Shown here: positions 2,996-58,863 of the stretch, one piece after another
How positions within the stretch are numbered: position 1 is the first letter of the stretch
Layout of the letters: each line of letters begins with the position of its first letter
DNA from: Rhodospirillaceae bacterium
Lineage (GTDB): Bacteria; Pseudomonadota; Alphaproteobacteria; Rhodospirillales; Rhodospirillaceae
Length of the DNA: 64,000 nt
Assembly: GCA_040219235.1 (NCBI GenBank)
Contig: JAVJSV010000021.1
Coordinates: 62,001-126,000, forward strand
Direction of reading: 5' to 3'
Translations under genes and position numbers: made by a program
The notes under the pieces: model-generated
The model's input: the letters and a program-made list of their open reading frames with translations, nothing else
Told to the model about the DNA's origin: nothing
Databases searched by the model: none

Positions 2996-3189
2996 CATGG
3001 GCTCGTTCCAAGGGGGCGTGCCGCAGCGCTTCCATGGGCTCGTTCCTGCACTCATACGTCCATGGGCTCGTTTGAACGCAACCAGTCGTGCATGGGCTCG
3101 TTCCACCGTCGAGCCCACAAACAATAATTCTCGTTCCACCGTCGAGCCCACAAACAATAATTCTCGTTCCACCGTCGAGCCCACAAACA
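2996..3189. repeat. Palindromic repeat patch with 33-bp tandem repeats between convergent genes
   Basis: Four copies of CATGGGCTCG lie at 2996, 3033, 3061 and 3091. The last runs into three tandem 33-bp units (3097-3129, 3130-3162, 3163-3189 partial), each carrying CGAGCCCACA, the reverse complement of the GGGCTCG core. At 3093-3117 the arms TGGGCTCG and CGAGCCCA form a perfect 8-bp hairpin with a 9-base loop. The patch fills the 242-bp gap between two genes that end facing each other, so it may act as a REP-like transcription stop or mRNA-end structure. No spacers are present, so it is not a CRISPR array. Confidence 0.85.
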
Positions 3190-6750: not shown

Positions 6751-6774
6751 AAAAAAGCCTGAAAAAATCAGCCA
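6751..6774 (-). terminator. Possible intrinsic terminator after the SDR gene ending at 6768
   Basis: On the minus strand the stop codon sits in an imperfect stem (GGCTGA, then TCAGGC) with a T-rich loop, followed by a run of six T (complement of 6751-6756). The stem is short and has one bulge, so this is a weak candidate. Confidence 0.35.
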
Positions 6775-7529
6775 GCGCCAGCCCCGCCGTCAATATTGAA
6801 CTCCACACCCGTGATGTATTTTCCAGCTTCTGAGCACAAATAAACCACGGGATCGCCCACATGATGAGGCTCGCCGGTTTCTCCCCAGGGAATACGCGCG
6901 GCCACCATTGGTTTCTTTTTCTCTGCATCGGGTCCAAGCACATCAGGCACACCGGCGGTCCAGATCATGCCAGGGTGTATGGAATTGACCCGAATGTTGA
7001 CCCCAGCTCCTTCAATCGCCCCGGCGCGGGTCAGCCCAAGTTGGGCACCTTTAATCGCGCCATAAGCTGTGCTGCGTGGGTTTGCTTTTTGACCGACGAT
7101 AGAACTCATGTTGAGGATGACTCCGCCACCTGCGTTAACCATATGAGGCCATGCGTATTTCATCCCCAGAAAAGGACCATCCAGATCAACCAGCCGCAAA
7201 AATATCAGATCATCCCGTGTTAACTCTTCCACAGGCTTAACGACGGCTTCACCTGCATTATTGACCAGGAAGTCAAGGCGGCCATAGGTTTCTAGTGTTG
7301 TCTTGATCACACGTTGCCAGTCTTCTTCAAGCGTAACATCCTGGCGCACATAAAGGGCATCGCCCCCGGCGTCCCTAATCAGCTGTTCTGTTTCCTTACC
7401 GCCAGGTTCTTTGCGGCCTGTGACCACGACTTTAGCTCCGGCCATGGCAAGGCTCATGGCGCAGGCCCGCCCAATGCTGGCTGCGGTTGTTCCGGTTACG
7501 ATTGCGACTTTTCCGTCTAATGCGCCCAC
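6768..7529 (-). CDS. SDR family oxidoreductase (classical)
   Basis: 253 residues. The motifs read VTGTTAASIGRACA for cofactor binding, FLVNNAG, a catalytic Ser in LNMSSIVGQ, YGAIK for YxxxK, and a C-terminal NIDGGAGAG, so it should be an active NAD(P)-dependent oxidoreductase. The start is a GTG at 7529 with a GAGGGG ribosome binding site six bases upstream. It is transcribed divergently from the DUF1838 gene pair, and a 21-bp tandem repeat lies in the shared upstream region. Substrate unknown; neighbours suggest a pathway with DUF1838 proteins and an MDR dehydrogenase. Confidence 0.88.
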   Translation of the reverse strand: MGALDGKVAIVTGTTAASIGRACAMSLAMAGAKVVVTGRKEPGGKETEQLIRDAGGDALYVRQDVTLEEDWQRVIKTTLETYGRLDFLVNNAGEAVVKPVEELTRDDLIFLRLVDLDGPFLGMKYAWPHMVNAGGGVILNMSSIVGQKANPRSTAYGAIKGAQLGLTRAGAIEGAGVNIRVNSIHPGMIWTAGVPDVLGPDAEKKKPMVAARIPWGETGEPHHVGDPVVYLCSEAGKYITGVEFNIDGGAGAG

Positions 7530-7539
7530 GATTCGCCCC

Positions 7540-7581
7540 TCTGTCGTCCTAGCTATAACCTCTGTAGTCCTAGCTATAAAA
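7540..7581. repeat. Two tandem 21-bp repeats in a divergent promoter region
   Basis: 7540-7560 and 7561-7581 match at 18 of 21 positions, both containing GTCCTAGCTATAA. They lie 11 bp upstream of the SDR start codon at 7529 and about 150 bp upstream of the first DUF1838 gene. They may be paired operator sites or a duplicated promoter segment: on the minus strand each unit contains TTATAGCTAGGAC. Confidence 0.7.
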
Positions 7582-7727
7582 TGTTCTAACTATTAGCATG
7601 ACACTGATGAGGCTAAGCTAAAGGCTGCCGTGCTCATTTGGTCACTGGTCGGCTATCGCCGCTTGAAACCGCTTTTGTAACGCTGAGGCCGGTACAACAG
7701 AATGTCATCCCATAGAGGAGACGAGAC

Positions 7728-8609
7728 ATGGTTAGCAGGCGACACGCACTTTCCGCTGCAGCGGGGGCAACAGGCGCTCTCATCAGCGGCCAAACTGCCC
7801 AAGCTCAGACTCTGACATCTTTAAGTTCACCGATCAGTCAAACCACATCCGAATTTATTTATTTCGATGATCCAGCAGAAGAGTTCCGTGCTCAGTTTCG
7901 CATGGGACGGGATTTGGTCGAGGACCAGGGTTCAACCCTAACCTGGTATCATTGGATGGTTTTTATTATTCCAGGCGGTCGTCGACCCGAACCTCTAATG
8001 CGCTATGAGGGTATTGAATACAGTTACTTCCGGAATCTGGGCGATAATAATTATCGTATTCATGCTCACAATGTTTCGTTTGCGCGTGATCTGAAAACCA
8101 ACCAGTTTACAGACCGTGTCACCAATCCGATCACTGGCGAGCAAGTGGACGTTCCGGTTTCACTTTTGCTCCATGATCCTGGGACGGTCGGAAATCCAAT
8201 CGGTTTTCGTAACCTGAGTGGAGACGGTAATTACCAGAAGGTGTACCGTCAGTTCCGCATCGAAGACAATCTTATTAAGCTCGACAGTGTGCGCAGTGCT
8301 CCACCCGATTGGCCCGCAACGCATATCGAAAATTCTTGCAGTTGGGTCGATATGGATCTCTATGCCAATGAGACCATTACCTCTCTGCCGGTTCATTTCT
8401 GCGGGCATTACGCCTTTGAATATTATTCTTGGCTGAATATGCCAGAGGAATACAAACACGGACATTTGACGGGGTTTTGGGATGGTAAAAAAGTAAACTC
8501 CCCCGCCGAATTGCCACGAGAATTTCTGGATCGCATGGAGCGCGAATACCCCGAGTTATTGGAACCGCGCTGGAACGAATTTGATAGCCCTGTGCCCTTC
8601 GAATTATAG
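7728..8609 (+). CDS. Tat-exported DUF1838 family protein, copy 1
   Basis: 293 residues. The N terminus MVSRRHALSAAAGATGAL is a twin-arginine signal, with likely cleavage after the AQAQ region near residue 27. The mature part carries the conserved blocks of DUF1838, including LTWYHWMVF, RYEGIEYSYFRNLG, VSFARDLKTNQFTD, NPITGEQ and ENSCSWVD. The family has no established activity; many conserved aromatic and acidic residues suggest an enzyme or binder folded before export. A GAGGAG ribosome binding site lies before the ATG. The next gene is a close tandem duplicate of identical length, and the following dehydrogenase has the same leader. Confidence 0.85.
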   Translation: MVSRRHALSAAAGATGALISGQTAQAQTLTSLSSPISQTTSEFIYFDDPAEEFRAQFRMGRDLVEDQGSTLTWYHWMVFIIPGGRRPEPLMRYEGIEYSYFRNLGDNNYRIHAHNVSFARDLKTNQFTDRVTNPITGEQVDVPVSLLLHDPGTVGNPIGFRNLSGDGNYQKVYRQFRIEDNLIKLDSVRSAPPDWPATHIENSCSWVDMDLYANETITSLPVHFCGHYAFEYYSWLNMPEEYKHGHLTGFWDGKKVNSPAELPREFLDRMEREYPELLEPRWNEFDSPVPFEL

Positions 8610-8664
8610 AGAAAGTGCTGCAACACCTTGTTTTGGTGTCCACCCATTTGAGGAGAATAAAACT

Positions 8665-9546
8665 ATGGTCAGTCGTCGAGAGATTTTAGCAGGTACAGCT
8701 GGCGCAACGGGGGCTCTTTTAGCGGGGAAGCCGTCTATGGCGCAAACTGTTAAATCGGTAAGCCCACCGGTCGCGCAAAGTGTGTCCGAGTTTCTTCAAT
8801 TTGATGATCCTGTTGAAGAATTTCGCGCACACATGCGTATCGAACGAGACTTGGTTGAGGAGCAGGGCAGCACACTGACGTGGTATCACTGGATGGTCTT
8901 TGTCATTCCGGGCGGTCGCCGTCCAGAACCGCTAATGCGCTACGAGGGTATTGAATACAGTTACTTCCGCAACCTGGGGAATAACAATTACCGCATTCAT
9001 GCCCATAATGTGTCATTCCCGCGCGACCTTAAGACAAACAAATTCACAGATACGGTTGTGAATCCGATCACAGGCGAAACCATAGAAGCCCCTGTGTCAC
9101 TGCTTCTGACTGACCCTGGCACGATTGCCAGTCCCATCGGGTTTCGCAACATCAGCGGTGACGGTACCGCGCAAGAAGTCTATCGGCAGTTCCGCACAGA
9201 AGACAATCTCATCAAGCTGGATAGCGTACGTAGTGCGCCGCCGAACTGGCCAGCAACTCATATCGAGAATTCATGTCAGTGGGTCGAGTTTGACCTGTTT
9301 GCCAATGAGACGATTACCTCTCTACCGGTTCATTTCTGCGGTCACTATGCGTTTGAATACTATTCCTGGCTGAACATGCCGAAAGAGTATGAACACGGGC
9401 ATCTATCAGGGTTCTGGGATGGAAAAAAGATCAACGGTCCAGCTGAACTGCCGCGTGAAATTCTAGATCGCATGGAGCGCGAATACCCCGAGTTGCTGCA
9501 GCCGCGCTGGGATGATTTCGACAGCCCAGTGCCTTTCGAAATCTAA
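8665..9546 (+). CDS. Tat-exported DUF1838 family protein, copy 2 (tandem duplicate)
   Basis: 293 residues, the same length as the preceding gene and by eye about 80% identical to it over the mature protein; for example both have PEPLMRYEGIEYSYFRNLG and LPVHFCGHYAFEYYSWLNM. The leader MVSRREILAGTAGATGALLA is again a twin-arginine signal. The ATG at 8665 is chosen over upstream in-frame codons because GAGGAG lies at 8650-8655 and because the Tat signal begins there. Most differences are conservative, so both copies are probably functional. Only 55 bp separate it from copy 1, indicating one transcript. Confidence 0.86.
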   Translation: MVSRREILAGTAGATGALLAGKPSMAQTVKSVSPPVAQSVSEFLQFDDPVEEFRAHMRIERDLVEEQGSTLTWYHWMVFVIPGGRRPEPLMRYEGIEYSYFRNLGNNNYRIHAHNVSFPRDLKTNKFTDTVVNPITGETIEAPVSLLLTDPGTIASPIGFRNISGDGTAQEVYRQFRTEDNLIKLDSVRSAPPNWPATHIENSCQWVEFDLFANETITSLPVHFCGHYAFEYYSWLNMPKEYEHGHLSGFWDGKKINGPAELPREILDRMEREYPELLQPRWDDFDSPVPFEI

Positions 9547-9597
9547 CACCAACATTTGGTAAATGGATTAAAACTCAAGCCCCCAATGGAGATTTAA

Positions 9598-10746
9598 ATG
9601 GTGAGTCGTAGAGATGTTTTAGGCGTTGCTGTTGGTGTGACCGGAACAGCCCTGGGAACGGGCAAAGCCGCAGCTCTGTCTGGCGCTGGGGAACAACTCG
9701 CTCAGGCCACTGGCGAGACTTATCGCGCTTTTGAGATCGGTGAACAAAAGGGGCCTGATACATTACGGCTGGTTGAACGTCCGGTCCCAACGCCAGCTCG
9801 GGGTCAGGCGCTGATCAAAGTGACGGCGACCTCCATCAATGCCCGTGACCATGGCTTAATCTCTAACCTTTTTCCCTTCCCTCCCGGCCGCCGCCCAGAC
9901 ACACGCATCCCCATCAGCGAGGGCGCGGGTGTCGTTGTCGCCGTTGGTGAGGATGTAACCGGCGTGAAGCCTGGGGACCGTGTTACGGCAAGCCATTTTT
10001 CGTCCTGGGTTAAAGGGCCGTGGGACCCTGAGCAGTCTTACATTGGGGATGTCGGCAACAACATTGATGGCTGGCTGGCCGAGATGGCGCTGCTTCCTGC
10101 CCATGCTTTGGTCAAGTTGCCCGAAGGTGTATCAGAAGAAACCGCAGCAACTTTTGTTTCATCAGGAGTGACGGCATGGCATGCCCTCTATGAAGTCGCA
10201 CGCGTGAAACCTGGTGATATCGTTTTGTCTTTGGGCACCGGCGGTGTTTCATCCTTCGGAGTTCAACTGGCGAAATCGAGTGGGGCAAAGGTGGTGGTAA
10301 CCTCCTCCAGTGATGAAAAGCTGGAAGAAATGAAAGCGTTTGGCGCAGACATCGGTATCAACTATCGCGCCACGCCAGAGTGGGGTAAGGCGGTTCTGGA
10401 CGCCACGGATGGGCATGGCGCAGATATTGTGTTGGAGAATGTGGGTCGTAGAACGCTTGATCAATCGCTCACCGGAACCGCTGTGAATGGCTATGTTGTG
10501 ATGATCGGGACCGATCGTTTGCCCGAGCAACTGCCCAAGATGCCGGGCTTTTACATGAAGAACATCACTATGAAGGCGATCAGCAACGCCAGTGTCGCAA
10601 TGCTCAATGATATGGTGCAAGCCTATGCGGTGAGTGGCCTGAAGCCAGCCATCACCAAGCGATTTAAGTTTGAAGATGCCATTGAGGCCTTCGAGTTTCA
10701 GCGGCAACACGATGGCATTGGTAAGGTGATTATTGATCACACTTAA
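9598..10746 (+). CDS. Zinc-independent MDR (quinone-reductase-like) dehydrogenase with a Tat-like leader
   Basis: 382 residues. After the leader MVSRRDVLGVAVGVTGTALG comes a medium-chain dehydrogenase: GroES-like domain (ALIKVTATSINARDHG, then ISEGAGVVVAVGE), then a Rossmann domain with VLSLGTGGVSSFGVQLA and GADIVLENVG. The zinc-binding Cys/His ligands of zinc alcohol dehydrogenases are missing, as in quinone oxidoreductases. It should use NAD(P)H on a carbonyl, quinone or alcohol. The SRRxxL leader is shared with the two preceding DUF1838 genes, suggesting export with cofactor already bound, as known for glucose-fructose oxidoreductase. A GGAG ribosome binding site precedes the ATG. Confidence 0.85.
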   Translation: MVSRRDVLGVAVGVTGTALGTGKAAALSGAGEQLAQATGETYRAFEIGEQKGPDTLRLVERPVPTPARGQALIKVTATSINARDHGLISNLFPFPPGRRPDTRIPISEGAGVVVAVGEDVTGVKPGDRVTASHFSSWVKGPWDPEQSYIGDVGNNIDGWLAEMALLPAHALVKLPEGVSEETAATFVSSGVTAWHALYEVARVKPGDIVLSLGTGGVSSFGVQLAKSSGAKVVVTSSSDEKLEEMKAFGADIGINYRATPEWGKAVLDATDGHGADIVLENVGRRTLDQSLTGTAVNGYVVMIGTDRLPEQLPKMPGFYMKNITMKAISNASVAMLNDMVQAYAVSGLKPAITKRFKFEDAIEAFEFQRQHDGIGKVIIDHT

Positions 10747-10773
10747 AGGAGAGAGGGCTCGTTATCTGCGTCC

Positions 10774-10801
10774 CTAACTGAGTGGCCTTATGCTAACTGA
10801 G
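10774..10801 (+). promoter_or_regulatory. Candidate LytTR-type direct-repeat operator
   Basis: CTAACTGAG occurs exactly at 10774-10782 and 10793-10801, 19 bp apart on centre, ending 13 bases before the LytTR gene. The reverse complement, CTCAGTTAG, resembles the ACAGTTAAG-like half-sites of LytTR regulators, which also bind paired direct repeats about two helical turns apart. Autoregulation is inferred. Confidence 0.4.
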
Positions 10802-10814
10802 GTGACGACGATAC

Positions 10815-11627
10815 ATGAATAGGGCGAGCCTCCTCTTTTACATTGGGCTTCCTGTCGCACTTTCCATATTGAATGGCACGCGGGGCTCTCTCTATGCCCC
10901 GGATTTAGGGCCCAGTGTGCTGATCCCTTTTTGGTACGTCTGTAGCCAGTTCTTTTGGCTTGTGAGTGCGGGCCTGACTTTGGGATTGGCAAGGTCGCTC
11001 ACCATCCAAGGTGCCAGCTTACTTGCTATCGCGGTTTTCAGCGCATGGATCAGTATTGCTCTTAGCTATTTCTATCTTGGCGTTGTGGTTGGCATTTTTC
11101 GTGAGTCACTCGGGTCATTGTCAGAAATCGTTGAATCTGATGGCTTTTTACTCGTTGATCCGTTTGTCTCGTTCGCATTCGGTTCAAATGCACTTGGCGG
11201 GATAACCGCTTGGGTTGTTGCATTTGCGGTGCGCAATAGAATTCTGACGGGGTCGTGGGGAACGCTTTCGAGCACAGAGGTAATCGCTTCGGAAGGGCCT
11301 AACGACACGCCAGAGTTTTTGCAAAAGGCGAATCCAGCCATCGGGCAAGAATTGATCGCTCTGGAAGCACAGGAGCATTATTTAAAAATCTACACCGTGT
11401 TAGGCGAGGACATGGTGATGTGCCGCATGCGTGATGCGGTATCGGAACTCAAAAATTGGCCCGGTATTCGCGTTCATCGGTCTTTCTGGGTCGCAAAATC
11501 TGCGGTTCAAGAGGTCGAGAAAACAGGCAGAACCTTCAAGTTGACTCTGACCAACGGCCTTAAGGTGCCGGTAAGCCAGTCCTACAGGGGGGTGATCGAG
11601 CGAGAAGGTCTCGTTATCACCATTTGA
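10815..11627 (+). CDS. Membrane-anchored LytTR-domain transcriptional regulator
   Basis: 270 residues. The N-terminal 150 carry about four transmembrane helices (for example LLFYIGLPVALSIL and ITAWVVAFAVRN). After a linker, the C-terminal 95 residues form a LytTR DNA-binding domain: LIALEAQEHYLKIYT, CRMRDAVSEL, GIRVHRSFWVAKSAV, then LTNGLKVPVSQSYRG. No response-regulator receiver domain is present, so the membrane part probably senses the signal directly, as in other alphaproteobacterial membrane-LytTR proteins. It sits between the MDR gene and the third DUF1838 gene and is the obvious candidate regulator of this cluster. Paired CTAACTGAG repeats lie just upstream. Confidence 0.88.
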   Translation: MNRASLLFYIGLPVALSILNGTRGSLYAPDLGPSVLIPFWYVCSQFFWLVSAGLTLGLARSLTIQGASLLAIAVFSAWISIALSYFYLGVVVGIFRESLGSLSEIVESDGFLLVDPFVSFAFGSNALGGITAWVVAFAVRNRILTGSWGTLSSTEVIASEGPNDTPEFLQKANPAIGQELIALEAQEHYLKIYTVLGEDMVMCRMRDAVSELKNWPGIRVHRSFWVAKSAVQEVEKTGRTFKLTLTNGLKVPVSQSYRGVIEREGLVITI

Positions 11628-11660
11628 ATTGCCGGAAACTCTGCTGCTGCGGATCTGCTG

Positions 11661-11678
11661 CATGAAAGCGCATTCATG
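11661..11678. promoter_or_regulatory. Small inverted repeat after the LytTR gene
   Basis: CATGAA and TTCATG form a perfect 6-bp inverted repeat with a 6-base centre, followed by AATTTTG. It may be a weak terminator of the LytTR gene or an operator for the DUF1838 gene at 11778; the sequence does not decide. Confidence 0.25.
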
Positions 11679-11777
11679 AATTTTGTCGAATCCCGGTCCT
11701 AATGCGCATTGCGGCTAACTCGTTGTGTATTCACTATAGCTTCAGTTTGAAAATCACCAGTCAACGGGAGTTAAGAT

Positions 11778-12692
11778 ATGCTTGATATTATGAAGCGTGC
11801 GTTCGCAGGGGGGGCTGAGTCTGGTCTGTCGCGCCGTGAGGCGTTAAGCGTTCCGGCAATAGGCGCGGCAGCAACAGCATTTGGCATGAATTCTGCGCAG
11901 GCGGCCAGTCATGTCGAGGCAACCTATATGCCTCCCTCAAGCGGTCGGGTGCTGTCCGAGCAATTCTCGTTTGAGAACCCCTTGGCCAAGATGAAGGCTG
12001 AGTTTCGACTTGGCCGGGCGTGGGAAGATGAGGCTGACGTCTTACTGTGGTACTTTTTCACCATGTTTATTGTGGCGGAAGGCAAGAAGGTTCAACCCGT
12101 GGTGCGCTATGAAGGTATTGAGTTTTCCCATCATCGTAAGATCGGCGAAAACCTCTTTGAAGTTCACGGCCATAACACGTCCTATCCGCGTGACGTTTAT
12201 ACGGGTGAGTTCATTGAGGAGTTGGTTAACCCCGTGACTGGCAAAACCCATGGCGTCACCCCGACCATTCTGACCGAAGACCCGGGCATGATTTACGGCG
12301 TTGCCGGTAAGCGCCCGCTGGACCGGGAGGGCGCGGAATTTACGGAGACTTATTCTCTATTTCGCCTTGAAGATGACATCGTGAAACAGGAAGAAATTCG
12401 GGTTCCGCCCGACAATTGGTTCACACCATTTATTGAGACGTCTCACAATTGGACGCCGCGCGGCATGTTTGAGGATGAGTCCATCACGCGTCTGCCCTTG
12501 GGGACCAGTGGGGGATATGTTTTCCCTTATCCATCGTGGTTAGAGATGGAAGATAATCCTGGTCATATGTTTGCGATCTGGAGCGGCAAAAAGCTGGACG
12601 GTGTTCATCAACTGCCGCAGAGTTATTTTGATAAAATTCAACAAGACAATCCGGAACTGCTTGTTGTTGATAAGAGTAAGTTTAAAGGATAG
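11778..12692 (+). CDS. Tat-exported DUF1838 family protein, copy 3 (divergent)
   Basis: 304 residues. The twin-arginine motif SRREAL begins near residue 18, preceded by a longer n-region, and is followed by a hydrophobic Ala/Gly-rich stretch ending AQAAS near residue 43. The mature part shows the same DUF1838 blocks as copies 1 and 2 but in diverged form: RYEGIEFSHHRKIGENL, YPRDVYTGEFIEEL, NPVTGKT, and ETSHNWTPRGMFEDESITRL. It is therefore an older paralogue with probably a different ligand. GGGAG precedes the ATG. The beta-lactamase-fold gene begins 5 bp after its stop, so they are co-transcribed. Confidence 0.83.
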   Translation: MLDIMKRAFAGGAESGLSRREALSVPAIGAAATAFGMNSAQAASHVEATYMPPSSGRVLSEQFSFENPLAKMKAEFRLGRAWEDEADVLLWYFFTMFIVAEGKKVQPVVRYEGIEFSHHRKIGENLFEVHGHNTSYPRDVYTGEFIEELVNPVTGKTHGVTPTILTEDPGMIYGVAGKRPLDREGAEFTETYSLFRLEDDIVKQEEIRVPPDNWFTPFIETSHNWTPRGMFEDESITRLPLGTSGGYVFPYPSWLEMEDNPGHMFAIWSGKKLDGVHQLPQSYFDKIQQDNPELLVVDKSKFKG

Positions 12693-12697
12693 CAGCC

Positions 12698-13885
12698 ATG
12701 CTTCGAAATCTCCTCTATGGCCTGGGTGGGCTGGCGTTTTGCGTCGTCATTTTTGCCGGTGTTGAGTACTCCTCAGACCCCATATTTTGGCAGCGTTACC
12801 TTAATCCACCGGCCGATGCCATGGAGCCGGGACCAGACTTTTATCAACCCGCGTTCGACCTCAACGAACCGTCGACGGTTTTCTTTCCAACAGCTGAAAA
12901 CCCAACAATTTCAAACGATGTCCTTGAGGCGACTGCGCAGTGGGCGGATGACACTGGGGCAACGGCGTTCATTGTGGTGCACAAAGGTAAAGTGCAGATC
13001 GAGCGCTATTGGCGGGAGGGCGGTGTTGATGAACTTATGACCGGTCGCGCCATGACCAAAACAATCAATGCTCTCCTGGCTGGGATCGCGATCGGAGATG
13101 GTAAGATCGCCCTTGATGATCGCATTGGCGATTATATCGATGAATGGAGTGATGTTCCGCAAGGCGACATCACACTGCGCAACCTGCTCCACCATGCGAG
13201 CGGGTTGGAGAACCCGCCCCTTGGACCTGGGGCTTGGAACCGGTTTACACGGTCGGCCTGGACCGGCGATGTGGTGATGGTGGCTCTCGATCATAGCCAG
13301 GAACTTGAACCGGGCACCTTGTTCGATATCGGCAACGTCCCGTCGCAACTTGTCGCTATTGTTGTAGAGCGTGCGATTGGCAAACCCATTGAAGACTACT
13401 TTTTAGAGAGAATCTGGCGACCCATCGGGGCTGACCGGGGCAGCTTCTTTATGGACCGGGCCGATGGCATGATCCATATTGATTGCTGTTTTCGAACCAC
13501 GCCTTACAACTGGATGCGCCTCGGTGCTTTAATGCTCAATGATGGCATCTGGGATGGCGAACGGGTGTTGCCTGAAGGATGGGTGGACACAATGACAACA
13601 CCGTCCCCCCGCAATCCCAATTACGGCATGCATATTTGGCTTGGACGGGAGTTTGTCACAAACCGGCCTTACTCTGAGCGCCGCGACATTGGCATCCCGC
13701 ACACCGAGCCGTTTGTTCGGGATGATATCTATTTTTTTGAGGGCGGCGGCTATCGCAACCTCTACATCATTCCGTCTGAAGATATGCTGATTCTCAGACT
13801 GGGAAAAAGTGATCCCAATTGGGATGCGTCCTATCTGCCTAATAGGCTGGTTGAGGGCATTATCCCGGTTTCGTCTGAGCCTTAA
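12698..13885 (+). CDS. Beta-lactamase-fold (class C/EstB-like) serine hydrolase homologue with lost catalytic residues
   Basis: 395 residues with an N-terminal hydrophobic segment (about residues 5-25), indicating a membrane anchor or signal. The fold is that of the beta-lactamase-related serine hydrolases: GIAIGDGKIALDDRIGDYI, ITLRNLLHHASGLEN, PSQLVAIVVERAIGK and WMRLGALMLNDG. The nucleophile motif SxxK reads AMTK (codons GCC ATG ACC AAA at 13050-13061), so the serine is alanine. The second motif YxN reads IGN. Two of the three catalytic groups are thus missing, and it may be a binding protein or regulator. It overlaps the convergent SDR gene by 4 bp. Confidence 0.85.
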   Translation: MLRNLLYGLGGLAFCVVIFAGVEYSSDPIFWQRYLNPPADAMEPGPDFYQPAFDLNEPSTVFFPTAENPTISNDVLEATAQWADDTGATAFIVVHKGKVQIERYWREGGVDELMTGRAMTKTINALLAGIAIGDGKIALDDRIGDYIDEWSDVPQGDITLRNLLHHASGLENPPLGPGAWNRFTRSAWTGDVVMVALDHSQELEPGTLFDIGNVPSQLVAIVVERAIGKPIEDYFLERIWRPIGADRGSFFMDRADGMIHIDCCFRTTPYNWMRLGALMLNDGIWDGERVLPEGWVDTMTTPSPRNPNYGMHIWLGREFVTNRPYSERRDIGIPHTEPFVRDDIYFFEGGGYRNLYIIPSEDMLILRLGKSDPNWDASYLPNRLVEGIIPVSSEP

Positions 13886-14553
13886 GCGGCCAGCATCCCA
13901 CCGTCGATGGGCAGCACGTATCCGGTGATGTAATAGGCTTCATCCGAGGCCAGAAACGCCACAGCTTCAGCGATGTCTTGCACGGTGCCTGGTCGTCCTA
14001 ACGGCACCGATGCGCCCGCCATGACATCACCCATGGGGGTGCCTTCAATTTGTCCCGATTGCACACAGTTCACGCGGATACGGTCTTTGGCTTCACAACA
14101 CGAGAGGGCTGCGCCGCGCGTCATCATGCGCACGCCATTCGCTGACGCGCAGAAGGCGGCTTGTCCGGCGACACCGACCGTTGCGGTTGCCGGGGCAACA
14201 TTGACGATAGCGCCGCCATTACCAAATTCACGCATTTTAACAACGCCATATCGCGTGGCCAGAAAGGCCGCTTCGATGTTGTCACGATTGACGGCGCGAA
14301 ACTCTTCCAAAGACGTCTCGACGATAGCTTTCGGGGCTGCATATTTGGCTTCGGAAATGGTCACCAGAATGTCCAACCGCCCATGTTGCTTTTCAATGGC
14401 TGCAAGACCGTGCTCCCAACCTTCGACGGTTGTGACGTCAAAGTCAGCAGCGATCACCGTTGCGCCGCCGTCCTGAAGCTGCGCGCAGATTGCAGTTCCG
14501 GTCGCGCCGTCTGCGTTGGTGACCAACGCAACTTTACCGTCAAACTTTGCCAT
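13882..14553 (-). CDS. SDR-fold protein with degenerate active site
   Basis: 223 residues, SDR-like throughout: KVALVTNADGATGTAICAQL at the N terminus, ILVTISEA where NNAG is expected, and a C-terminal ITGYVLPIDGGMLAA. The catalytic residues are absent: YxxxK reads FCASAN, and the Ser position reads VNVAPATA. The glycine motif is also imperfect (TNADGATG). The reading frame is intact and the folding core is conserved, so it is more likely a selected non-enzymatic or re-purposed protein than a pseudogene. It ends inside the last codons of the convergent beta-lactamase-fold gene, which also lacks its nucleophile. Confidence 0.82.
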   Translation of the reverse strand: MAKFDGKVALVTNADGATGTAICAQLQDGGATVIAADFDVTTVEGWEHGLAAIEKQHGRLDILVTISEAKYAAPKAIVETSLEEFRAVNRDNIEAAFLATRYGVVKMREFGNGGAIVNVAPATATVGVAGQAAFCASANGVRMMTRGAALSCCEAKDRIRVNCVQSGQIEGTPMGDVMAGASVPLGRPGTVQDIAEAVAFLASDEAYYITGYVLPIDGGMLAA

Positions 14554-33825: not shown

Positions 33826-34845
33826 TTAGCTGTCGGGTACGCCAAACACTGAGCCCTTGCCGCCCGGTCCGCCGCGTCCGGCGGCGCGTTTTTCGTCGAT
33901 GATTTTCTTGGCGTAAGACCACGTGTTCTCGTTTTCGCTCAGACCTTTCCATTCTTTCGGGGCTTCAAGATATTTCGGGTAATTCTTGGCTGTGTAATCC
34001 CGAATATATTTTGGTAACCCCTCAACACCATTCATGAACTTAAACGACTGCGAATGATAAACCATGTGGCCGGCACGATTGCCCATTTCCATGAATGGCA
34101 GCCACATGCCACAGCGTGCCCAGGCTGTGTGGTTTGAGGCCGAGGCCACGTCCGGGTTCGCCACTTCGCTGAGGCTGCTGGAGATGGCCCATAACTCGCA
34201 GGATTGGTAGACGTCCTGTTGCGAATGCAGGGGATAGTCTTTGCGTGTCAGCGGGTTCTCTTGGGTGCGGAACACGTCGATTTGAAAGACAATGCGATCG
34301 CCGACAATCTCGTGATCAAAAGGCGGAGACCGGAAACCACCTGACACCCGCGAAATACGGTTCACGGGATCATTCAGAATATGCAGCACTTCAACGGTTC
34401 GCCCTGTCGCTGGATTCGTCCATGTATCGAGAATTTCTCCCGTTTTGGGGTCCATGTAGTACAGAATTTCTCGATGATAGAAATGCCAGACGCCATCGCC
34501 TTGATAATCCAGGCGCGTCGCGCCCACACCATAGGTTTGAAAGGCCAGATAATTTGCTTCTCCAGGCACCCACATCCAGGCTTTGCCTCCAAAACCGCTG
34601 ATCACGTCTTCACCGGAGAGGTCGCCCTGAATTTTTAGCAACGACCGTAAATTGGTTTCCGGGTCCATGCTGTCAAAATCTGTCGGCACAGCTGCGTTTG
34701 CGCTTCTCGGCATAATTGATGGTGCGGCCAGTCCAGCAGCGCCTAAGCCCGCAGCTTTCAGCATATCGCGGCGGCTGGATGCCTCTGTGGCAGCAAGGGT
34801 TTCAGACAGAAGCGGTGGCAGAGCGGCGGAAGAGGGCAAGGTCAT
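33826..34845 (-). CDS. Tat-exported DUF1838 family protein, copy 4
   Basis: 339 residues. The twin-arginine signal reads SSRRDMLKAAGLGAAGLA (about residues 23-40) and ends near ANA. Mature blocks match the family: RSLLKIQGDLSGEDVI, AFQTYGVGATR, FYHREILYYMDPKTGEILDTW, NPATGRTVEVLHILNDPVNR and MGNRAGHMVYHSQSFKF. It is much more distant from the 7.7-12.7 kb copies than they are from one another. The C terminus has a Gly-rich tail (RAAGRGGPGGKGS). It is divergent from the formylglycine-generating-enzyme-like gene, with 236 bp between them. Confidence 0.78.
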   Translation of the reverse strand: MTLPSSAALPPLLSETLAATEASSRRDMLKAAGLGAAGLAAPSIMPRSANAAVPTDFDSMDPETNLRSLLKIQGDLSGEDVISGFGGKAWMWVPGEANYLAFQTYGVGATRLDYQGDGVWHFYHREILYYMDPKTGEILDTWTNPATGRTVEVLHILNDPVNRISRVSGGFRSPPFDHEIVGDRIVFQIDVFRTQENPLTRKDYPLHSQQDVYQSCELWAISSSLSEVANPDVASASNHTAWARCGMWLPFMEMGNRAGHMVYHSQSFKFMNGVEGLPKYIRDYTAKNYPKYLEAPKEWKGLSENENTWSYAKKIIDEKRAAGRGGPGGKGSVFGVPDS

Positions 34846-34995
34846 ACGAGAAGTCCCTTATGGCTAGTCTTGAAGATATAAAAACCTACCGCGCAAATTG
34901 ACTGACCTGCGGCCCTCTCTCCAAGACTGTCCGACTGGCGGGCGGCGACACTCGGTGGCATAATTGCTGTTAATCAAACATTTTGAAAGCCAACA

Positions 34996-35033
34996 TGGAA
35001 AATCAATCTGGAAAATCAATCTGGAAAATCAAC
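34996..35033 (+). repeat. Three tandem 13-bp repeats
   Basis: TGGAAAATCAATC occurs at 34996-35008 and 35009-35021, and a third copy with one change near its end at 35022-35033. It lies about 50 bp upstream of the start at 35082 and might be an upstream regulatory element or simple replication slippage. Confidence 0.7.
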
Positions 35034-35081
35034 GTGCTAAGTTTGTATTCTGTCCGGCGAAAAAGTAAGGGAGTTATCTCA

Positions 35082-36041
35082 ATGCGTAATGCGGCAGTTT
35101 TAACGGGTGCACTTGGCATTTTCTTCGGCTTTATGCCGGTCGCTCCAACTTCGGCTCAAATCATAGAGTTGTCTCCAGGCGCGGTCTTGTCAGACTGCGC
35201 CGACTGTCCAGAAGTTGTTGTGATTCCCCCCGGCACGTTCACAATGGGATCCGACCATATGGAACCCATGCGGGACGATGAACTGCGCCCAGAAGGGCCG
35301 GTTCGCACCATCACAATCTCAAAGCCATTTGCCGCTGGCCGTTATGAAGTGACCAAAGCGCAGTTTGACTCTTTCATCAATGCCACAGGCTATATTCCAA
35401 CTAACTCCTGCGTGACCTGGGGGGGACGTGATCCGGTTGATGGCGTCACCTGGCAAGAACCTCGTCTGGGTGTTGAGCCCCGCGACACTGATCCAGTGGT
35501 TTGTGTGGATTGGAATGATGCCAAGGCTTACACCCAATGGCTGGCGGGGCGCACGGGGCAACCCTACCGTTTGCTCACTGAGGCCGAGTGGGAGTACGTG
35601 GCTAAAGCCGGCGCACGCACGGTGTGGCCGTGGGGTGATGATCCCGATCAGATTTGTGAGTACGGCAACGTCTTCGATAAGTCCGGGTTAACTGAACCGC
35701 GCTCTACATCCAATTCAAACGCGGCCGCCCAGGCTGCAAACTGTGATGATGGTGCCATGCTGGTGGCTGAAGTTGGGCAATACAAGCCCAACGCTTTCGG
35801 TCTTTACGATACCATCGGCAATGTGTGGGAGTGGGTCGAAGACTGCTCGTTGATGCTTTACACAGACGGACCCTTGGACGGATCGGCGTATCAGTCTATG
35901 GGAACGTGCGAGAAGCGTGCCGTGCGCAGCGGCAGTTGGCGTAGTCGCATATCGCGGCATCGCCCTACGTTCCGCGGGCGTGATCCAGACGATTTGGCTT
36001 ATTACATCTTTGGTTTCCGGATTGCCCGCGATCTGAACTAG
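35082..36041 (+). CDS. Exported formylglycine-generating-enzyme (FGE-sulfatase) fold protein
   Basis: 319 residues from the ATG at 35082, which starts a Sec signal (AAVLTGALGIFFGFMPVAP) and has AAGGGAG upstream. An upstream ATG at 34983 in the same frame is rejected since it reads through tandem repeats. Domain blocks: VVIPPGTFTMGS, AAGRYEVTKAQFDSFI, PVVCVDWNDAKAYTQWLAG, YRLLTEAEWEYVAKAG, YDTIGNVWEWVEDCS and SGSWRSRI. The fold includes true sulfatase-activating enzymes and many modification or ergothioneine-type enzymes; as an exported form with no sulfatase nearby, its role is open. Confidence 0.88.
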   Translation: MRNAAVLTGALGIFFGFMPVAPTSAQIIELSPGAVLSDCADCPEVVVIPPGTFTMGSDHMEPMRDDELRPEGPVRTITISKPFAAGRYEVTKAQFDSFINATGYIPTNSCVTWGGRDPVDGVTWQEPRLGVEPRDTDPVVCVDWNDAKAYTQWLAGRTGQPYRLLTEAEWEYVAKAGARTVWPWGDDPDQICEYGNVFDKSGLTEPRSTSNSNAAAQAANCDDGAMLVAEVGQYKPNAFGLYDTIGNVWEWVEDCSLMLYTDGPLDGSAYQSMGTCEKRAVRSGSWRSRISRHRPTFRGRDPDDLAYYIFGFRIARDLN

Positions 36042-58797: not shown

Positions 58798-58863
58798 TTC
58801 TGCGTGCAGAAAAACCACATTCTGCGTGTAGAAAAACCACATTCTGCGTGCAGAAAAACCACA
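58798..58863. repeat. Three tandem 22-bp repeats with internal palindrome
   Basis: TTCTGCGTGCAGAAAAACCACA repeats at 58798-58819, 58820-58841 (one change) and 58842-58863. TTCTGC and GCAGAA form an inverted repeat around a 2-base centre in copies 1 and 3. The array lies just upstream of the pseudopilin gene start and within an in-frame extension of that ORF. It is a candidate operator or phase-variable promoter element. Confidence 0.85.

Follow-up and report, generated by a model that had tools for sequence, protein, structure and literature searches.

A 64,000-nucleotide stretch of DNA from a Rhodospirillaceae bacterium (GenBank assembly GCA_040219235.1, contig JAVJSV010000021.1, positions 62,001 to 126,000; hereafter the window) carries a head-to-tail cluster in which genes for DUF1838 proteins with a twin-arginine translocation (Tat) motif stand beside genes for a Tat-tagged dehydrogenase of the MDR superfamily and a beta-lactamase-fold protein that has lost its catalytic serine. 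We found that the module is real and conserved and carries export signals, and that it leads into an uncharacterised family that has expanded strikingly, the cluster being one of 32 DUF1838 loci in its genome. Our preferred reading, to which we give a probability of roughly 0.4, is that the cluster encodes an exported module that processes small molecules, probably in catabolism, and includes a nicotinamide enzyme carried across by Tat. An earlier sequence-only reading of the window had named the DUF1838 pair, the dehydrogenase, a membrane LytTR regulator, a third DUF1838 copy and a fourth at about 33.8 kb, all of which are present; it overlooked the beta-lactamase-fold gene and the expansion. 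The genes are as follows.

6768–7529, minus strand: SDR1, a short-chain dehydrogenase, divergently oriented.
7728–8609, plus strand: DUFa, a DUF1838-like protein of 293 amino acids with a Tat motif (profile matches).
8665–9546, plus strand: DUFb, a DUF1838-like protein with a Tat motif; its ATG at 8665–8667 is preceded by GAGGAG.
9598–10746, plus strand: MDR dehydrogenase with a Tat motif, quinone-oxidoreductase-like (PF00107, E = 4e-25; PF08240, E = 9e-15).
10815–11627, plus strand: membrane LytTR transcription regulator, optional at the locus (PF04397, E = 1.7e-14).
11778–12692, plus strand: DUFc, a third, diverged DUF1838-like protein with a Tat motif (profile matches; orthologues elsewhere).
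12698–13885, plus strand: beta-lactamase-fold protein in which the SxxK serine is alanine (AMTK; Pfam domain and alignment).
13882–14553, minus strand: SDR2, a short-chain dehydrogenase.
33826–34845, minus strand: DUFd, a canonical DUF1838 protein with a Tat motif (PF08894, E = 5.5e-57).

From DUFa through the beta-lactamase-fold gene (7728–13885) the intergenic gaps are 55, 51, 68, 150 and 5 bp, and the two short-chain dehydrogenase genes flank the cluster on the opposite strand. A listed TTG start of DUFb at 8581 looks spurious, and DUFb was analysed as 8668–9546, with the first methionine left out. DUFa and DUFb are 79% identical, close to the earlier estimate of about 80%, and DUFc is 36% identical to DUFa. 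Against the Pfam model of DUF1838 (PF08894, curated cut-off 25 bits), DUFa, DUFb and DUFc score 24.7, 17.9 and 24.0 bits, just below the cut-off, and DUFd scores 193.7 bits, above it. With a profile built from the genome's own members, the three cluster copies reach 224–248 bits and all 43 DUF1838 proteins of the genome have E < 1e-67, every one of these proteins being in the seed; the same profile also picked up 43 proteins in the 26 related loci described below. The shared conserved columns, in DUFb numbering, are D120, T123, N132, P133, T135, G136, W234, M237 and G244. Among 46 aligned DUF1838 proteins, four of them from the window, the first arginine of the twin-arginine motif is present in 45 and the second in all 46, which bears out, as a motif, the earlier suggestion that these are putative Tat substrates. 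Within the genome, 39 of the 43 proteins have an RR in the first 80 residues, and 28 pass a loose and 20 a strict motif-plus-hydrophobic test; DUFd is the sole match to the Pfam TAT_signal model, below its cut-off.

The arrangement recurs elsewhere. Scanning genomes with a trio of queries, a search that may omit near-identical records, located 26 loci. The records are named Alphaproteobacteria, Rhodospirillaceae or Rhodospirillales for 18 of them and Gammaproteobacteria for 8; judging from isolate names, we take these genomes to be aquatic in origin. MDR is in place in seven of them (L066, L067, L068, L071, L075, L087 and L089, on seven contigs from seven other genomes), with the core order SDR1(-)/[DUFa]-MDR-[LytTR]-[DUFc]-beta-lactamase-fold gene-SDR2(-)-QueF, optional genes in brackets. 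All five unbracketed genes are kept in 7/7 syntenic loci, a single gene of the DUFa/DUFb type lies 5' of MDR in five, and DUFc lies 3' of MDR in six. MDR adjoins DUF1838 in seven other genomes, and the partnership proposed from the window alone is upheld. A second locus type combines a DUFa/DUFb-type gene with another beta-lactamase-fold gene (L069, L070, L072, L076, L077, L078 and L080); at one of these, in Glaciecola sp. 33A (L080:7484–11616), a beta-lactamase-fold gene stands with three DUF1838 genes in a row. DUFc orthologues occur in other Alphaproteobacteria and in metagenome-assembled genomes of Gammaproteobacteria. In five of the latter (L081, L082, L083, L085 and L086) the DUFc orthologue, at 68–70%, lies by a conserved predicted-transporter block, without MDR; the one member of this block that was scanned is MFS_1.

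The MDR orthologues begin with SRR or TRR plus a hydrophobic stretch in 8/8 cases, consistent with the exported-looking enzyme described earlier. The protein carries ADH_N plus ADH_zinc_N domains, no zinc-ligand motif was seen by eye in the MDR alignment, and the best NCBIfam model, TIGR02824 quinone_pig3, scores below its cut-off (157.9 versus 296.8); judged by sequence, MDR is of the zinc-free quinone-oxidoreductase type of its superfamily. To our knowledge, exported nicotinamide enzymes are rare. Like MDR, glucose-fructose oxidoreductase of Zymomonas has a twin-arginine signal and is a nicotinamide enzyme; its fold family is a different one, and it is reportedly exported by Tat with NADP bound, which provides a precedent. 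A second DUF1838–MDR pair (C4:14881–16898) is kept in another genus, with no clear Tat motif on either protein. Other twin-arginine starts near DUF1838 or CpeT-like genes belong to four proteins of the FAD amine-oxidase family, an aldo/keto reductase about 3 kb from a DUF1838 gene (L053:5957–7000) and an NAD(P)H-binding (PF13460) protein that adjoins a CpeT-like gene (L197:2908–3699) and is possibly another exported nicotinamide protein. The beta-lactamase-fold protein of the window matches PF00144 with alanine at the catalytic SxxK serine, and when 19 DUF1838-linked proteins of this fold were aligned, that serine was Ala or Gly in 15 and Ser in 4.

DUFa and DUFb had been taken for a recent tandem pair whose near identity suggested dosage or recent selection, and neither idea is supported. 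The tandem pair occurs in none of the seven syntenic loci, and DUFa is up to 90% identical to same-locus copies of other species. In the tree, DUFa groups at 97/99 with four same-locus single copies and one copy of the L069 pair, and DUFb falls outside this clade, its exact place being weakly supported (86/80). Because DUFa clades with the copies of other species and DUFb lies outside, the pair is old, and we reject a recent duplication.

The LytTR protein has a hydrophobic N-terminal part (crude hydropathy scan). Membrane LytTR proteins (HigX, 'fused LRS') are normal in Alphaproteobacteria according to PMC13384398, so the novelty lies in the company they keep, the DUF1838 genes. Like HigX, the window protein joins a hydrophobic N-terminal part and a LytTR domain in one polypeptide; HigX is described as widely conserved (PMC13384398), whereas the window type is accessory and sits beside DUF1838 genes. 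A two-gene LytTR regulatory system (LRS) would have a separate membrane inhibitor gene 3' of LytTR; here LytTR and the hydrophobic part share one protein, and the following gene encodes DUF1838. Across the seven genomes of the genus there are 19 LytTR matches, seven of which, when grouped by eye on their N-terminal sequences, seem to represent a core gene present once in each genome, with no DUF1838 nearby in the flanking DNA, four of them having only about 1 kb on one side. Of the 12 accessory LytTRs, a class separated from the core one after the data were seen, 11 have a DUF1838 gene at a distance of 0–5583 bp, the orthologues not being independent; the twelfth is on a 4.4-kb contig with little room. 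With only 10.5% of the window's genome no more than 6 kb away from a DUF1838 gene, the proximity statistics are 4/5 in that genome (p = 6e-4) and 11/18 (p = 3e-7). LytTR matches of 34–37% also occur in L072, L077 and L079. DUF1838 genes elsewhere do adjoin both MDR and LytTR genes, the associations on which the sequence-only reading had been built.

The cluster belongs to a much larger set. The window's genome has 46 PF08894 matches, which together with a protein search amount to 43 genes in 32 loci, with a median pairwise identity of 21% and about 1% of the genome (~40 kb of 3.97 Mb). Among 41 genomes compared, ten have 28–47 DUF1838 matches, one has 3 and 30 have none; the ten comprise seven of the genus, the window's own included, and one each from three other genera. 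In wider samples, which may overlap and in which at most 7 candidates per genome were scored, DUF1838 was found in 6 of 384 other genomes of the class and 3 of 397 others of the phylum. G334, which belongs to a different family, yields 24. Reciprocal best hits are closer than any same-genome paralogue in 22 of 24 cases for a genome of another genus, G011 (represented by 32 DUF1838 genes from its retrieved loci), and in 9 of 13 for G334; because orthologues across genus and family are closer than paralogues, the DUF1838 subfamilies are ancient. In G011, an MDR gene with an MFS gene, a beta-lactamase-fold gene, a solute-binding protein (SBP) gene and a Rieske oxygenase gene are each kept with a different DUF1838 gene, and other conserved neighbours may be plain synteny; 12 locus comparisons with G334 (flanks of ~1.5 kb) gave only a 25% TonB match. 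The expansion, seen in a small number of mostly uncultured bacterial groups whose near relatives have few such genes or lack them, points to undescribed chemistry outside the cell membrane.

We propose that the locus is one of about 32 built around an expanded family of predicted Tat-exported beta-barrels and that it would process a small molecule beyond the inner membrane. MDR would fold in the cytoplasm, probably with its nicotinamide bound, and cross by Tat, as the DUF1838 proteins would. A small molecule, probably a hydrophobic one, may be the ligand of the barrels, which would either retain it or catalyse its isomerisation, hydration, cyclisation or cleavage, all of them non-redox steps; the redox step would be done by MDR. 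The serine-less beta-lactamase-fold protein would bind instead of hydrolysing, SDR1 and SDR2 would complete the processing in the cytoplasm, and the membrane LytTR, where present, would regulate the module. The redox system suggested earlier is retained in so far as a dehydrogenase is present; the redox function would come from that enzyme and not from DUF1838.

We compared 258 genes within 4 kb of DUF1838 with 350 genes in 20 random control stretches; the p-values are uncorrected for 18 families, and the profiles were built from the near set. Short-chain dehydrogenases (8 versus 1, p = 0.006), CN_hydrolase (4 versus 0, p = 0.03), alpha/beta hydrolases (9 versus 3, p = 0.035) and beta-lactamase-fold genes (6 versus 1, p = 0.046) were more frequent near DUF1838, and MDR, TonB, SBP and FAD oxidase genes were not enriched. 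Recurring neighbours are FAD oxidases with twin arginines (4/4), carbon-nitrogen hydrolases, some with a signal and most without, and beta-lactamase-fold genes. Several results weigh against our preferred reading. Tat motifs are not significantly enriched among the neighbours (loose motif 21/258 versus 16/350, p = 0.09; strict 5/258 versus 5/350), and the count for LytTR is 3 versus 0 (p = 0.08). MDR as a general partner of DUF1838 is rejected, with 3 of the 22 MDR genes of the genome near a DUF1838 gene (p = 0.41); the link between dehydrogenase and DUF1838 is real but local. A single DUF1838 gene with varied neighbours is found at 24 of the 32 loci. LytTR is present in one of the seven syntenic loci (L071) and absent from six, so the LytTR association noted earlier holds for the accessory regulators and is optional in this cluster. 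And no catalytic residue set was found among the conserved DUF1838 columns. DUF1838 might then act alone, with MDR, LytTR and the beta-lactamase-fold gene merely sharing its transcript, which would suit the single-copy loci, the missing MDR enrichment and the way LytTR and DUFa come and go. We consider this unlikely in view of the MDR–DUF1838–beta-lactamase-fold neighbourhood kept in seven other genomes, the LytTR proximity and the fact that five of the six beta-lactamase-fold genes within 4 kb lie less than 300 bp from DUF1838.

An AlphaFold2 model of DUFb (pLDDT 87) and a model of DUFd (pLDDT 76.6) predict a helix-capped beta-barrel with extra C-terminal helices relative to calycin-like barrels. 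The calycin-like barrels Rv2717c, nitrobindin and CpeS are among the nearest fold matches, a phycobiliprotein lyase, the spirocyclase OssO and Ycf58 are also named among the matches, and the DUFd search is topped by a designed barrel. Outer-membrane barrels score about as well as calycins, and because the VIA lists mix the two, we call the predicted fold calycin-like only provisionally. With Foldseek, the best match of DUFb has E = 1.4e-3 (OmpU) and DUFd has four below 1e-3, led by ApoB, a photosystem II PsbO chain and LmcA; query TM-scores are ≤ 0.28 among the matches listed for both. A PDB sequence search with two queries gave no close match (best E 0.13), and so no structure at odds with the sequence-only reading. 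That reading had looked to a pocket of conserved residues: the barrel is predicted, but residues conserved across the paralogues look structural, like a scaffold. The main rival to our proposal is that DUF1838 proteins are exported ligand-binding or delivery barrels, not enzymes, every copy being specific for a single compound and working for the adjoining enzymes. The calycin-like matches, the scaffold-like conservation and the change of partners from copy to copy would all fit; however, calycin-like folds include enzymes, the lyase and OssO among them, and Tat instead of Sec signals suggest folding in the cytoplasm. We regard it as a serious possibility, though a less probable one than a processing module.

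The fold matches bear on the CpeT family (PF06206) as well, the only further family that we compared over the 41 genomes, chosen for its proximity to DUF1838 genes. CpeT matches number 2–15 in each of the ten high-DUF1838 genomes and are absent from the 31 others, the three-copy genome included (Fisher p = 9e-10; by genus 4/4 versus 0/31, p = 2e-5; relatedness makes both optimistic). Co-localisation is weak, with 4 of 15 CpeT genes within 6 kb of DUF1838 (p = 0.07). A cassette of CN_hydrolase, barrel and FAD oxidase occurs once with DUF1838 (L040) and once with CpeT (L198), the two oxidases being 40% identical, and in L047 an oxidase, CpeT and DUF1838 follow consecutively. The exact co-occurrence over the 41 genomes, with CpeS, Ycf58 and nitrobindin among the fold matches of the models, could suggest that the barrels handle tetrapyrroles or bilins from phytoplankton. 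We think this very improbable: outer-membrane barrels score about equally, hhalign detected no DUF1838–CpeT homology (probability 1.3, with 14 of the genome's 15 CpeT-like proteins), and the CpeT-like proteins of the genome mostly show, by eye, a signal-like stretch at the start, unlike phycobilin lyases, which are not known to be exported. No sequence homology was found between DUF1838 and CpeS/CpeT lyases, DUF3598/BFA1 or nitrobindin, from which the extra C-terminal helices also set it apart.

Within the open-licence literature, we found nothing on DUF1838 beyond a table entry, for ArtU of the aurantimycin biosynthetic cluster of Streptomyces, and nothing on PF08894. ArtU, as that entry gives it, and the action of the membrane LytTR HigX on the envelope (PMC13384398) would favour a biosynthetic system, one that modifies part of the envelope or a secondary metabolite that is secreted. 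We hold this to be quite improbable, as the genes are scattered over 32 loci and no assembly-line synthase was noticed among the neighbours scanned, most neighbours lying outside the scan.

Further features of the window are a short block upstream of DUFa and the divergent neighbour of DUFd.

7639–7653, plus strand: TGGTCACTGGTCGGC block in the SDR1/DUFa intergenic region (by eye).
34983–36041, plus strand: FGE-sulfatase-domain protein, divergent neighbour of DUFd (profile match).

The TGGTCACTGGTCGGC block is found, by eye and up to a few changes, in all eight upstream regions compared, and the exact 14-mer occurs once in the genome. A genome-wide DUF1838 operator was rejected, matches to the 14-mer with at most two mismatches numbering 16 versus 27 for the reversed control. 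The same intergenic region holds a 21-bp direct repeat (7538–7579; 2.0 copies, 95% matches), for which we claim no role as a LytTR operator because it is unconserved, being found in none of the seven syntenic upstream regions, that of LytTR-bearing L071 included, and overlaps a promoter-like TATAA sequence. The start of the FGE-sulfatase open reading frame (ORF) contains a 13-bp repeat, TGGAAAATCAATC (34996–35032, 2.8 copies). Elsewhere, a 33-bp tandem repeat lies between ORFs (3097–3189; 2.8 copies, 100% matches), and a 22-bp one (58798–58863, 3 copies) at the start of a 1217-codon ORF on the minus strand.

Taken more broadly, some uncultured, apparently aquatic Alphaproteobacteria may have an undescribed modular metabolism beyond the inner membrane. 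Its interchangeable module cores would be DUF1838 barrels, exported by Tat and numbering in the dozens, together with several CpeT-like proteins; exported nicotinamide and flavin oxidoreductases, carbon-nitrogen hydrolases, serine-less beta-lactamase-fold proteins and accessory membrane LytTRs would be their partners; and a lineage would typically carry either the full set or next to nothing of it. We offer this joint picture tentatively, and doubt that all its parts hold together. The closest parallel is SAR202, where PMC6946804 describes paralogue expansions of FMNO, enolase and ring-hydroxylating dioxygenases. Shared with these are the tens of ancient, diverged copies of one family, the uncultured hosts and the ties to other expanded families; there the chemistry of the enzymes is known, whereas no activity is known for DUF1838, a predicted beta-barrel family most of whose members carry Tat motifs. 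In our preferred reading, as with the SAR202 enzymes, the spread of DUF1838 would broaden the dissolved compounds usable by the cell. The near all-or-none pattern of DUF1838 and the matching spread of CpeT provide a clean comparative handle, and the conserved MDR, with its Tat tag and named partner family, lends itself to direct tests. Should the modules prove catabolic, dissolved organic matter would be turned over by a further route, so far unseen.

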